DNA from: Humisphaera borealis
Lineage (GTDB): Bacteria; Planctomycetota; Phycisphaerae; Tepidisphaerales; Tepidisphaeraceae
Direction of reading: 5' to 3'
Assembly: GCF_015169395.1 (NCBI RefSeq)
Contig: NZ_CP063458.1
Coordinates: 310,001 to 374,000 of the forward strand
Length of the DNA: 64,000 nucleotides
This document shows positions 16,116 through 41,332 of the stretch, one piece after another. The translations under genes and the position numbers were made by a program. The notes below the pieces were generated by a model. That model was not told the origin of the DNA. It ran no database searches and was given only the letters and a program-made list of their open reading frames with translations. The first letter of the stretch is position 1, and every line of letters starts with the position of its first letter.

Positions 16116-19100
16116 TCAGGTCGGGTTTGGCGTAGGCCCGAACGTGTCGGCCGACGACTTCTTCCCCTTGCGCTGGGTCAGGCGAACGAGCTGAAAGCCG
16201 ATCCAGATGACCACCATGCACGGCACGATCACCACCAGGCCGAAGATCACCCACTGCAACACCTTGAACAGCCCGGTGAGCGCGCCGCTCATGCCTTCAC
16301 GGAGCGATTCGCCGAACCCTTTCTCCGATGCCACCGTCGCCGGCGTGGCGTAGGTGATTTCAACCCGCGACCGCGACAGCAAGCCTTCCGGGATGTTCTC
16401 GTTCTGACGGCTCTGGTTGGCCGTCACCTCACCTTGGCTGCGGACGCTGGTGATAAGCTGCCCGATCGCCGCCAGCGGCACATCGACGACGACGCGAGCA
16501 CCGTCTTTGCGATCCTGGCGGGCGCGTTCGGCTTCGATCTTCCGCCCGCCCGCCGCGATCGCCGCCGCCTCAAGGTCGCCGATCGCCTTGTCGATGTTCG
16601 AGGTCTCCACGGTCAGCTGGAATACCTGCCGCGGCGGTTGCTGGCCTGCCTCCTTCACCGACAAGCTGTAACGAATCTTGGTGTCGACCGTTCCTTGCGT
16701 ATCCTGCGACCGCTCGATCGAGCGATTGAACACGTCCGTGTTTTCCGACAGGACCTGCTCGATGATCTCCCGGTCCGACCGGTTGATCACGAACACCAGC
16801 GAACCGGTAATGTCCGTCCGGTTTTGCACCGAGAGCTGCGAACTAACGACCAGGGCATCGGTGATCCGCAGGGCATCGACGAGCTTGTTGTACCGGTCTT
16901 TCGCCGACGGCGCGACGACCACCATGCTGTGCGACTCCCGCGGCTGAAGCGTGCGTTCGTCGACCACCGTCACGATATAGCCGATCTTGTTCTCGACCGT
17001 CATCGGCCCGTCGGGCAGACGGGCAGTCGCGCGGCTGGTGGTCAGGCCGGCGTCCTTCATCGCCTGTTCGAACTTGGTCGCGTTGTCGCGCGGCGTCGCG
17101 AATCGCAACGTCCCGTTCGGGTTGGCACGGTCGGCGAGGTTCAGGTTCGAACCCACCACCCGTGCCCCCGCGTCCTTTGCCGCCCGAACGAGCTTGTCGA
17201 ACGTGTCCTGCACCGTCCGCGTGGCGACCGTTGCGTTGATCGTTTCCCGCGGCGACAGGCGGATTTCATCCACCAGGCCGATCGACAGGCGAATCTTCGA
17301 ATCCACCGTCGTTTCGGTGTCGTTTGAGCGGACGGCACTGCGGGAGATAATCGCCCCGGACTCACGCAGTACGCCTTCGACCGTGGACCACTTCTCCCGT
17401 GATGTTTCGAACTCGAGCTGCCCGGTGATGTTGTTGGCGTCCTGCTCATTCAGTTGCGAGGTCACGACCCGGCCGCCGGCGTTGGTCGCGGCGTCGAGCA
17501 GCTTGCGGAAGGCCGTCGGGACATCCGCTGCCGCGACCTGTAGCGTCGTCGTCTCTCGTGCTGGGACCTGCGACAGCGACATGATCTGCAGCGAGAAACC
17601 GCGTTTGGCCTCGGTCGTGTTCTGCGTATCGGGGTTGATTGCGACATCCATCCGCATGACATCAACGCCGGCGCGAACCGCGCCCAGCAGCACGTCGGCC
17701 TTGTCCGCCTGCACCTGAAAGACGATCGTTCCCGACGTCTGGTCGGCCCGCGGGCGGTTGAGCTGTGACGTCTTGATCGTCCCGCCTGACGACTTCACTT
17801 GTTCCAGGATCAGCTTGTAGGTTGCTTCGACATCCTGGGCGGCGAGGTTGAGCGTGGTCGTCTGCCGCGGCTCGATGTTCGCCAGGTTGTAGATGTGGAT
17901 CTCGAACTGCGTCTCGCGCTTCTCAACACGCAGGCCGGCCACGATCGGGCCGCTGCCGCCTTCGGTCGCGGTCTTGCGGCTGATATCCAGCCGCGCCAGC
18001 TTGCCGAGCTGCTTGAGACGGTCGATCACTGGTCCGGCTGCGTCGGGGGAGACGCTCGCCTTAATCGTCGCCGAAAGCTGGCCGGCTTCGAGCTTCTTCA
18101 GGTCCGAATCGATCACCCGGCCTTTGGCCTGGTCGATCGCTTTAAGGACTTCCGATCGCACATTTTCGACGTCTTCGCTCTCGACGGCGGTATTGACCGT
18201 CTCGACTTCAAACGCCGCGGTAGGGGAGCGCACCTCGCGTTCCTGCAGTTCGACGACCAGCGTCGCCAGCGCGACGAGATTGTCGTAGTACTTGATCTCG
18301 CCCTGAAGCAGTTCGAGCTTTTCCCGCCAGACGCCGAGCTGCTTCTCGGCCTCGAGCAGGTCCTTCACTTCGCCGCCCTTGGCGATGATGTCGAGCAGGC
18401 GTTTTTCCATCGCCAGCGCGGCACGAAGCTGCGAGGCGATGTCGGTGTATCGCTTGGTGACGTCCTCGGCACCGATGCGCTGGTTTTTCAGGTCGCCCAT
18501 GCCGCGGAGCTTGAGCACGAGCGTGTCGAGCCGTTCCGGCGGAACGCGGACCGTGACCGACCCGCGGACCTTGCCGTTGGGAAGCTTGTCGGAAGAGGTC
18601 GTCGCGACATATCCGCCTTCCTCGGTGACAAGCTTGCTCACCTGGACGAGGGCGCTATCGAAGCTGTCGACCTCGAAATTGACGACGCCGTTGCGGATGA
18701 TCTTGCGTACCTGCACCTCCGGCGGCGGGACTTCGGCAGGCGCGGGGGCGACGGGTTTGGGAGCCGGTGTTGCCGGGGCCTTCTCCTGCGCAGCCGAGGC
18801 AGTCTCCTTCTTGTCTGCATCAAAGAACAGATTCGTAGTGTCCGACAGAACCTTCGCCCGGTCACCGTTGGTGCTTCCAGATTTCTTGTCGCCACCCTTC
18901 GCTTCGCCGTCGATATCGGCCACTTCGACCTGGTCGCCGAGGGTGAGTGTCCCATTGCCGTTCTTGCCGAAGCCAAGGCCGCGTTTCGATACCGGCCCGT
19001 CGGCGGCGAGCCCTTCGGTCACCTTCTGAACATCCGCGAGTGATTTGAGCTGGTCCTTACGGCCGTCCTTCAGCTTTTCGATCTCGCTTTCAACCCCGGC

Positions 19101-20333
19101 CGCGCTGAGTTGTGTCGGGCGATACCACTTGCCGTTGTCGTCGCCGCTCGTGCTCATGGCCCAGCCGCGCGTGTCGGCAGCTTTGCTCTTGGTCTCCGGG
19201 CTGGCCGTTGCGGGCGAGAGCGCTACAGTGCCGAGCTTGCCCTCGATTGGGACATCCGTCCCGAGTTGCAAGGTACCGCCGGAAACGGTGGTGCCACCGG
19301 TGTACGAATTGTGGCCGCTCCAACTACTTCCCGCGGAGCGACCTTTGACGGTGCCGCCGTTGTTCGACTGAAGATTGAAATTGGGCGCGTCGGAAAAGTC
19401 GGGGATGTCCAATGCGACCGGACCATTCGACGGCTTCGAGGCTTCTTCAAGCCTCTTCTCGGCTTTGCCCTTGAGGGAGCTTCCGCGCGGCGCATTGGAA
19501 TCGCTTCGCACCGCTGACTCATTCGACTGTAGCGAAGGCACCCCGTCTTCGGCGTTCTTGACGCCTTTGGTTCCGTCGGTACGGGCAAGACTCGTGGTGC
19601 CGGTGGGACCGCCAGTAGTAGGGGAACGATCGTTCACGTCGCGGGCTTCGCCCCACCTGAAGTTGTAGTAGTTCGACGCGTTGGTTCCCGACGAGCCGGC
19701 TCCGGCCTGGGTGCCGAAGTACGTTGCGTAGGGGTCAGTCGATTGGAGGTCCATCCCTTCCTTCGTGGCGCTCAGATAACCCATTTCCCGCGACTGTGGT
19801 TTTAGTGTCTGTTCAACGTCCGTCGATCCGTTGAGCACGTCGTTACTTTCAGCGAGTTTGGATCGAAGCGAGAACGCCCGGCCGTCGGAATCCGCCTCCC
19901 GGCGTACGCCATATTCTTGGTGGAATCCGGTGCCCCGAAGTACGCCGATCTCATCGGTGCGACGTAGATCGCGACCGTCCACCGCCACGCTCATTCCATA
20001 CCCCACTGTCCCGATCACCAGCGACGCCGCCACGCCGACGGCGATGCGGCGGACCATGGGATGGTGGATGGGACGCGACAGGCGCATCACCAGCGACGGC
20101 CGCGAGAACTGCGGGCGGAGCGCGCCGACGAGCCGGTCCTCGAACGCCGGGCCAGGAACAGCGCCAGCCAGGGCGGCGACGAGTTTGGCATCGGCGGCGC
20201 GGGCGATTTCGAGGACGGCGGCGCAGTCGCCGCATGTCGCGACATGGGCGTCGAACGCCCGCGTCTCGGCGTCGTCGAGTCCGCCGGTGAGATACGTGTC
20301 GATCAGCGGGAGGATATGGTTTTCGGTGGTCAT
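16116..20333 (-). CDS. Giant anti-sigma-like membrane protein with tandem DUF4349-like repeats
   Basis: 1405 residues. The N-terminus is a zf-HC2 anti-sigma zinc finger (H30, C34, C37 in HVATCGDC), followed by a transmembrane helix at about 93-112. A low-complexity linker contains one adhesin-type beta-strand repeat (HNSYTGGTTVSGGTLQLG, about 336-353). A DUF4349-like domain starts near 548 (GVVNFEVDSF, then KRYTDIASQLRAAL and a coiled coil). Five tandem units begin at residues 823, 926, 1029, 1132 and 1235, exactly 103 apart, each opening with R-E/Q and containing a VVTSQLN/VVSSQLS-like strand. A second transmembrane helix (about 1355-1380) and a basic tail end the protein. It is predicted to be anchored at both ends with about 1200 residues outside. 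The ECF sigma gene lies directly upstream, 237 bp away. Confidence 0.85.
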   Translation of the reverse strand: MTTENHILPLIDTYLTGGLDDAETRAFDAHVATCGDCAAVLEIARAADAKLVAALAGAVPGPAFEDRLVGALRPQFSRPSLVMRLSRPIHHPMVRRIAVGVAASLVIGTVGYGMSVAVDGRDLRRTDEIGVLRGTGFHQEYGVRREADSDGRAFSLRSKLAESNDVLNGSTDVEQTLKPQSREMGYLSATKEGMDLQSTDPYATYFGTQAGAGSSGTNASNYYNFRWGEARDVNDRSPTTGGPTGTTSLARTDGTKGVKNAEDGVPSLQSNESAVRSDSNAPRGSSLKGKAEKRLEEASKPSNGPVALDIPDFSDAPNFNLQSNNGGTVKGRSAGSSWSGHNSYTGGTTVSGGTLQLGTDVPIEGKLGTVALSPATASPETKSKAADTRGWAMSTSGDDNGKWYRPTQLSAAGVESEIEKLKDGRKDQLKSLADVQKVTEGLAADGPVSKRGLGFGKNGNGTLTLGDQVEVADIDGEAKGGDKKSGSTNGDRAKVLSDTTNLFFDADKKETASAAQEKAPATPAPKPVAPAPAEVPPPEVQVRKIIRNGVVNFEVDSFDSALVQVSKLVTEEGGYVATTSSDKLPNGKVRGSVTVRVPPERLDTLVLKLRGMGDLKNQRIGAEDVTKRYTDIASQLRAALAMEKRLLDIIAKGGEVKDLLEAEKQLGVWREKLELLQGEIKYYDNLVALATLVVELQEREVRSPTAAFEVETVNTAVESEDVENVRSEVLKAIDQAKGRVIDSDLKKLEAGQLSATIKASVSPDAAGPVIDRLKQLGKLARLDISRKTATEGGSGPIVAGLRVEKRETQFEIHIYNLANIEPRQTTTLNLAAQDVEATYKLILEQVKSSGGTIKTSQLNRPRADQTSGTIVFQVQADKADVLLGAVRAGVDVMRMDVAINPDTQNTTEAKRGFSLQIMSLSQVPARETTTLQVAAADVPTAFRKLLDAATNAGGRVVTSQLNEQDANNITGQLEFETSREKWSTVEGVLRESGAIISRSAVRSNDTETTVDSKIRLSIGLVDEIRLSPRETINATVATRTVQDTFDKLVRAAKDAGARVVGSNLNLADRANPNGTLRFATPRDNATKFEQAMKDAGLTTSRATARLPDGPMTVENKIGYIVTVVDERTLQPRESHSMVVVAPSAKDRYNKLVDALRITDALVVSSQLSVQNRTDITGSLVFVINRSDREIIEQVLSENTDVFNRSIERSQDTQGTVDTKIRYSLSVKEAGQQPPRQVFQLTVETSNIDKAIGDLEAAAIAAGGRKIEAERARQDRKDGARVVVDVPLAAIGQLITSVRSQGEVTANQSRQNENIPEGLLSRSRVEITYATPATVASEKGFGESLREGMSGALTGLFKVLQWVIFGLVVIVPCMVVIWIGFQLVRLTQRKGKKSSADTFGPTPNPT

Positions 20334-20420: not shown

Positions 20421-20523
20421 AGTGACACGGGCTTCCAGCCCGTGCGAGAGGCACCGGACTTTCAGGCGATGAGCGATTGCCATACTCCTGAATCACTCGC
20501 ACGGGCTGGAAGCCCGTGTCACT
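20421..20523. repeat. REPIN-like element with perfect 28-bp arms
   Basis: Arms 20421-20448 and 20496-20523 are perfect reverse complements (begin AGTGACACGGGCTTCCAGCC), with a 47-bp centre. Each arm folds as CACGGGCT-TCC-AGCCCGTG. It sits between the ECF sigma gene and the anti-sigma gene and may act as an attenuator or mRNA-stability element there (inference). Confidence 0.88.
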
Positions 20524-20570: not shown

Positions 20571-21179
20571 TCAATACTCTTCACTGGCACTCATCAACTG
20601 CCTCAGGCGGTTCATCCCGCGGCTGAGAAGGCCGCGTAGTGATCCATTGCTGAGGCCCAATTGCTTGCAGACGGTCGCGTAATCGGCCCCGGCGAGATAG
20701 CGCATGGAAATCGGGGCGCGATACTCCTCGGGCAGCACCCGCAGAAGCCCCAACAGGCGGTCGTGGGTCTCGCGCTGCTCCGACTGTTCGGCGGGTGACA
20801 AGCCGGGGTCGCGTACCGCGGCCAGCACACCAGCCTCTCCGTCCCCGCCGCCGATGACCCGGTCGCGGCCGCGCTTCTTTCGCAGGTCGTGCCGGCCGGC
20901 GTCGATACGCACGGTTCTAGCGATAGAGAAGAGCCAACGGCGGAAGCCGGATGCATCGGGGAGTTCGTGGAGTTGGTCGATACTCCGCCAGGCGATCAGG
21001 TAGGTTTCTTGGACGAGGTCTTCGGTCCGCTGACGGTCGCCGGTCTCCAGGTAGAGCCTGGCGTAGAGCATGCGTGCGGTGGCGCGAACGAGGGTTTCGA
21101 ACGCGGCGTGATCGCCGTGCTGGGCCTGGCGGACGAGGAAGGCTTCGTCCGTGCCGTCTGTCGCGCCGGAGAATCGCAT
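20571..21179 (-). CDS. ECF-type RNA polymerase sigma factor
   Basis: 202 residues from the ATG at 21179, which has GGGAG 6 bp upstream; the frame is open about 240 bp further. Region 2 spans about residues 24-92 (AFETLVRATARMLYARLYLE, TEDLVQETYLIAWRSI, FRRWLFSIART). Region 4 spans about 140-195 (LRVLPEEYRAPISMRYLAG, YATVCKQLGLSNGSLRGLLS, GMNRLRQLM). It is cotranscribed with the giant zf-HC2 protein directly downstream, the expected sigma/anti-sigma arrangement. Its regulon is unknown. Confidence 0.92.
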   Translation of the reverse strand: MRFSGATDGTDEAFLVRQAQHGDHAAFETLVRATARMLYARLYLETGDRQRTEDLVQETYLIAWRSIDQLHELPDASGFRRWLFSIARTVRIDAGRHDLRKKRGRDRVIGGGDGEAGVLAAVRDPGLSPAEQSEQRETHDRLLGLLRVLPEEYRAPISMRYLAGADYATVCKQLGLSNGSLRGLLSRGMNRLRQLMSASEEY

Positions 21180-21438
21180 CCGTGCTCCCGGCGGGTTAGT
21201 TGCCGCGGTTCGCGACAGGGGTTTCATCGCCGACGCCTGTCCACCTGCGTATAGGTCGTCGTCCGGGGGTATTCGTGTCACGTCGCTGCCTCCGGGGTGG
21301 ATCTGCGGCTGTTCACCCTGCCCGGCGACAGCCCGCACATCATGAGGAACGACAATGGGACGCCAGCGGCGCGCGAAAGTTGCGAAGAATGATCGGCTGA
21401 CCGCTGTCCGTGACACGGACAGCCGACAACGGGTCGGG

Positions 21439-39927: not shown

Positions 39928-39949
39928 GGCGTGGTCTCGCAGGGCATGG

Positions 39950-40087
39950 GTAGGGTGGGCTTCAGCCCACCGGTGCCTGACGAAGGCGGGTTGTGTCATG
40001 TTGCGGATGCATCAATGGTAGCGGCGCCGTTCGCCGCCGACACAACCGGTCATCGAACGGCACGCGGTGGGCTGAAGCCCACCCTAC
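39950..40087. repeat. REPIN of the GTAG type, copy B
   Basis: The left REP (39950-39971) is GTAG plus the perfect hairpin GGTGGGCT-TC-AGCCCACC. The right REP (40066-40087) is its exact inversion apart from the loop, ending CCTAC. The spacer is 94 bp. Same family as 3345-3496. It lies between the convergent FIST and aminotransferase genes. Confidence 0.9.
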
Positions 40088-40099
40088 CTAAGGCGACGA

Positions 40100-41272: not shown

Positions 41273-41332
41273 CCGGGAACGCGGAGCCCCAGCTCCGCAT
41301 GGTCATGCGGAGCTGGGGCTCCGCGTTCCCGG
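41273..41332. repeat. Compact palindrome with perfect 29-bp arms
   Basis: Arms 41273-41301 and 41304-41332 are perfect reverse complements around a 2-bp centre. Each arm also folds alone (GCGGAGC-CCCA-GCTCCGC), so the sequence can form one long hairpin or two short ones. It lies 51 bp upstream of the aminotransferase start codon, so it would be in that gene's leader if transcription starts beyond it. Confidence 0.9.

Follow-up and report, generated by a model that had tools for sequence, protein, structure and literature searches.

A candidate class I anti-sigma factor of Humisphaera borealis with seven tandem DUF4349-related modules

The stretch of the Humisphaera borealis genome analysed here (contig NZ_CP063458.1, positions 310,001 to 374,000; 64,000 nucleotides, termed the window) encodes a 1405-residue protein that opens with an anti-sigma domain and continues into a long chain of tandem modules, which raises the question of what such a chain is made of and what it might sense. 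The initial annotation proposed an anti-sigma protein held by two membrane helices, in which five modules spaced 103 residues apart act as an envelope ruler or a force or ligand sensor. The gene and its principal segments are as follows.

16116..20333, minus strand: anti-sigma factor gene, 1405 aa (open reading frame translation and Pfam)
20220..20315, minus strand: zf-HC2 zinc anti-sigma domain, residues 7-38 (Pfam, E 2.9e-6)
19983..20045, minus strand: membrane helix 1, approximately residues 97-117, with a positively charged stretch before it (hydropathy)
18714..19976, minus strand: long, low-complexity, predicted external linker, residues 120-540 (PATR is the sole Pfam match there)
18216..18707, minus strand: DUF4349, residues 543-706, comprising module 1 (545-626) and a coiled-coil hairpin (~626-688) (Pfam, AlphaFold)
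16206..16286, minus strand: membrane helix 2, approximately residues 1350-1376, with a basic tail after it (hydropathy)

The N-terminal zf-HC2 domain was found where the initial annotation had placed it, with a Pfam score of 27.7 bits against a cut-off of 22.2, while NCBIfam NF052375 matches the same domain at E 7e-11, below its cut-off. A sequence search of the PDB returned nothing beyond a weak match of the zinc domain (3hug, E 0.36). The segment HVATCGDC, at residue 30 of this domain, carries the HxxxCxxC zinc motif (Hx3Cx2C) that defines class I, or zinc, anti-sigma factors (PMC7406223). Taken with the adjoining ECF gene described below, the domain and motif bear out the anti-sigma assignment and, judged from its sequence, the window protein is a zinc-type class I anti-sigma factor with two predicted membrane helices, the second of which is kept in relatives together with its basic tail. 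Hydropathy agrees with the two helices first proposed. The charges beside them suggest that both protein ends are cytoplasmic, and the ~1230 residues between the helices, close to the ~1200 originally claimed, would form the external part.

A close relative is present in 9 of the 26 Tepidisphaeraceae genomes, and further relatives occur in other Phycisphaerae, including a distinct clade termed f14, and in Gemmatales/Gemmataceae; a scan of genome contigs with the single protein as query returned no relatives. Of 25 loci, 21 have an ECF sigma factor gene immediately upstream. One further locus has a partial ECF gene at the contig edge, and the contig ends first in the rest. Wherever a relative's contig extends far enough, in two planctomycete classes, the pairing proposed at the outset holds. 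No neighbour other than the ECF gene is conserved in the loci of relatives compared. The elements upstream of the anti-sigma gene in the window are as follows.

20571..21416, minus strand: ECF sigma factor gene, open reading frame of 281 aa from GTG (Pfam, TIGR02937, orthologues upstream in relatives)
20421..20523, strandless: perfect 28-bp inverted repeat in the sigma/anti-sigma intergenic gap, a copy of a dispersed REP-like element

The ECF frame matches Sigma70_r2 (E 1e-8) and Sigma70_r4_2 (E 7e-9) of Pfam and TIGR02937 (E 5e-20). It carries ~90 extra N-terminal residues in comparison with its counterparts in relatives and, because these are shorter (184-225 aa), the listed GTG probably lies too far upstream, with the ATG near 21227 or the one near 21182 as the likely start. 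The arms of the intergenic repeat have 9 matches in the 400 kb sampled. In four relatives (G004, L097, L103 and L107) the same gap holds long hairpins whose sequence is unrelated, G015 has a related but imperfect hairpin there, and the window contains more long perfect intergenic inverted repeats at 39949-40088 and 41273-41332 (24 and 29 bp). Rfam gave no match across the gene region.

Beyond the DUF4349 domain, which matches its Pfam profile (PF14257) at E 3e-62 in seven stretches (210 bits against a cut-off of 27.7), the protein continues as six further units.

17949..18212, minus strand: module 2, diverged, residues 708-795 (HMM E 1e-40; hhalign to module 3, 98.5%)
17562..17870, minus strand: module 3, residues 822-924 (self-comparison, hhalign, HMM)
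17253..17561, minus strand: module 4, residues 925-1027 (self-comparison, hhalign, HMM)
16944..17252, minus strand: module 5, residues 1028-1130 (self-comparison, hhalign, HMM)
16635..16943, minus strand: module 6, residues 1131-1233 (self-comparison, hhalign, HMM)
16371..16634, minus strand: module 7, the diverged last unit, residues 1234-1321 (HMM E 1e-30; hhalign)

The R-E/Q pairs reported at residues 823, 926, 1029, 1132 and 1235 are at exactly those positions. In an ungapped self-comparison of residues 701-1330, offset 103 dominates with a mean BLOSUM62 score of +0.61, followed by its harmonics 206 and 309, while every other offset scores -0.40 or less and the best of 300 shuffled controls reaches -0.38 (offsets 90-115). 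The repeat is real because this signal lies far above the shuffles. Profile comparison leads to the same result: with profiles that include relatives, units 2-7 are mutually homologous, most pairs giving hhalign probabilities of 95-99.9%; values are weaker for pairs 2-6 and 6-7, and few sequences are available for unit 6. The claimed count of five needs amendment. Five 103-spaced starts do exist, but the last opens a diverged terminal module rather than a canonical copy, and adding the DUF4349 globular half and module 2, whose start precedes the first canonical unit by 114 residues, brings the total to seven. The DUF4349 region ahead of the repeats was correctly recognised, but its kinship with them was missed: the globular half aligns with units 2, 3 and 7 at hhalign probabilities of 80, 84 and 61%. 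The units are homologous to this half, which makes the repeats additional copies of it. A separate, new repeat domain, considered as a candidate, was ruled out by the same hhalign homology.

The linker preceding the modules, a disordered segment, was compared with whole genomes by an unbiased six-frame search. In several relatives this turned up matches between the linker and genes elsewhere in that genome. The G004 linker (residues 150-247) matches the G004 secretin with 60% identity over 108 aa (E 6e-35), and in a tree this piece is sister to that secretin (support 0.945), nested in the family's secretins; a single ancestral secretin capture was rejected for G004 by this placement. The linker of L109 matches its own Flp-pilus protein CpaB (65%, E 9e-40), those of G020, G021 and G015 match pseudopilins (H-X9-DG; E 1e-9 to 1e-10), and G019 has a pseudopilin C-terminal piece (E 0.004). 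Two secretin pieces are found in G016. In G166 of the f14 clade one piece is of pseudopilin type and another belongs to a putative secreted protein, and L107 matches a segment that follows the helix in membrane-anchored squalene-cyclase-like proteins (65%). Donors were identified through the Pfam families Secretin, N_methyl/DUF1559 and RcpC/CpaB. Such linker pieces had escaped the initial annotation. Loci whose linkers hold captured pieces of their own secretin, pseudopilin, CpaB or secreted proteins are L036, L035, L033, L032, L039, L109 and L084. In the window protein two pieces were observed, both weaker than the captures of relatives.

19365..19418, minus strand: secretin-like piece, residues 306-323 (VALDIPDFSDAPNFNLQS), matching the secretin open reading frame of this genome at 72% over 18 aa
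19263..19319, minus strand: PATR-like piece, residues 339-357 (Pfam PF12951, E 9e-6, 26 bits against a cut-off of 27)

The first reaches a whole-genome E of 0.0024 against a donor frame that is itself a Pfam Secretin (E 4e-24). The window protein has no Pfam match to Secretin (PF00263), the likeness being confined to these 18 residues. The second scores 19.6 in TIGR02601 against a cut-off of 19.85, and this single sub-threshold PATR is accompanied by no autotransporter beta-barrel family in Pfam. Chance matching of the linkers was rejected, since whole-genome E-values reach 1e-35 to 1e-40. Donor comparisons rise to 166 bits against at most 31.6 bits for 660 shuffled linkers, a control that is partly circular as the donor set was picked from hits, which the whole-genome E-values are not. 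The family modules, the family zinc domains and L184, used as controls, gave no donor matches. L184 (G000:C1:6227919) is another long zf-HC2-type protein encoded in the genome of the window protein; its open frame spans 856 aa, its external part is different, and the modules do not relate it to the window protein.

The donors identified are without exception exported or envelope proteins, most of them from secretion or pilus machinery, either because sequences of other kinds are not tolerated outside the membrane or because these are useful there. The linker is most likely a tolerant spacer that accreted pieces of exported-protein genes. An unlikely rival reading holds that the pieces are functional mimics (secretin, pseudopilin, CpaB and adhesin baits) for periplasmic partners or proteases of secretion and pilus systems, and that the switch reports the assembly state of a type II, Tad or pseudopilus apparatus. 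The lineage-specific nature of the pieces and the common character of their donors are in keeping with mimicry, as are the position of the G004 piece beside its own secretin and the donor order kept by the pieces of G016 (secretin) and of G020 and G021 (pseudopilin). Against it, no recognisable piece was found in the linkers of G001, L097, L101, L105 and most of f14, the pieces of the window protein are short and eroded, secretion genes are not conserved next door, and pseudopilins are abundant (41-85 N_methyl matches per genome), although secretin and CpaB genes are generally few. A stronger form appears rather improbable: the linker would be a self-mimicking sensor that repeatedly gains secretin, pseudopilin, CpaB or adhesin segments copied from its own cell, and the ECF switch would compete with those proteins for their envelope partners and thereby report on secretion or pilus assembly. 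The captured pilus and secretion pieces hint at the sensed signal, which is short of proof.

The AlphaFold model of the window protein, built from a 19-sequence alignment, predicts seven modules. Each has a beta-alpha-beta-beta-alpha-beta arrangement, neighbouring modules are linked by long strands, and the coiled-coil hairpin sits inside module 1. Mean pLDDT is 79, and pTM is 0.40, at which the module-to-module arrangement is not predicted. An independent model from the f14 clade shows four modules (pLDDT 83). The window protein contains seven ferredoxin/ACT-like modules, counting the DUF4349 half and the two diverged units. That the modules are ACT-like ligand-binding domains, with a small molecule as the signal, is quite unlikely: the ferredoxin-like fold, Foldseek similarity to proteins with ACT domains in tandem (GcvR and SerB2 among them), and weak ACT_4 and ACT_6 matches (both below the Pfam cut-off in the window protein) point that way, but the PDB fold matches (Z 7-8, E ~1e-3) indicate only the common ferredoxin/ACT arrangement. 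A secretin N-domain or ring-building fold is absent among these PDB matches, an absence that proves nothing.

Module number, counted with the DUF4349 half throughout, was compared among ECF-paired genes, as the initial annotation had advised, and varies between 4, 5, 6 and 7, the 103-residue spacing recurring throughout relatives. The f14 clade has 4 modules (3 detected in one member), most relatives 5, G019 and G023 6, and the window protein and L097 7; a relative of the same genus has at least 6 before its contig ends. Expansion was independent in two lineages, because the module tree places the additional copies of L097 in one group, separate from those of the window lineage. L097 (L097:1239-5144) is a lake Planctomycetota relative in which seven modules were reached by independent tandem duplication of a W3-type unit. 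The variable module number and the two separate expansions speak against a fixed-length ruler, and the ruler is not supported in the form first proposed. An envelope-spanning ruler or force sensor in which tension frees the sigma factor is very unlikely, since for all its long beaded chain, exact spacing and membrane helix at each end, its module number changes from 4 to 7 by independent expansions, both anchors apparently lie in the same membrane, and Pfam finds no peptidoglycan- or outer-membrane-binding domain.

We consider it quite probable that the window protein is a class I zinc anti-sigma factor bound to the membrane, partnered by the upstream ECF sigma factor and fitted with a new, expandable external sensor. 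The sequence itself establishes the domains, the repeat, the two helices and the pairing, while sigma binding, topology, signal and proteolysis are predictions. The zinc domain most likely holds the sigma factor at the inner membrane, outside which the ~1230-residue loop would consist of the fast-evolving linker, the coiled-coil hairpin of DUF4349 and, like beads on a chain, seven ferredoxin-like modules that would have arisen through tandem duplication of the DUF4349 globular half. By analogy with RseA and RsiW, an event on the external chain, either binding or the loss of a partner, may expose the anti-sigma factor to site-1 and then site-2 cleavage, which would free the sigma factor. Against this explanation, anti-sigma factors usually cross the membrane once, so that release from a loop with two helices is hypothetical, and the linker pieces might be functional rather than filler.

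Many planctomycete ECF switches respond to signals that are unknown, and a family spread over two classes offers a testable lead on one of them, as well as a case for studying how external anti-sigma sensors evolve. The window protein shares with the class I factors ChrR, RsiW and RslA the N-terminal zf-HC2 domain with its HxxxCxxC motif, a membrane helix and the adjacent ECF gene, sigma binding being predicted, and differs from them in the ~1230-residue external part, the seven modules and the second membrane helix. With DUF4349 proteins (PF14257) it has in common the globular half, the coiled coil and the C-terminal membrane helix; DUF4349 matches outside the anti-sigma family have a single module and, in most cases, no anti-sigma domain, whereas here the half is repeated and fused to zf-HC2. 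A DUF4349 lipoprotein is a tail-anchored candidate in a study of Tat tail anchors (PMC10924467) and DUF4349 is mentioned in a study of antibiotic evolution (PMC13218686). These two were the only papers naming DUF4349 in the open-access literature, to which the search was confined, and none there names it alongside anti-sigma factors. Two further systems are comparable in how they work. RsgI-type anti-sigma factors are membrane-bound and carry bulky external carbohydrate-binding or enzyme modules; the window protein has instead tandem copies of one ferredoxin-like module. In the RseA-DegS system the anti-sigma factor is cut once misassembled envelope proteins appear, and RseA is short and without copies of envelope-protein segments. 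On a known type of ECF/anti-sigma switch, what is new here is a chain of modules that can expand, together with a linker into which pieces of the envelope machinery are taken up.
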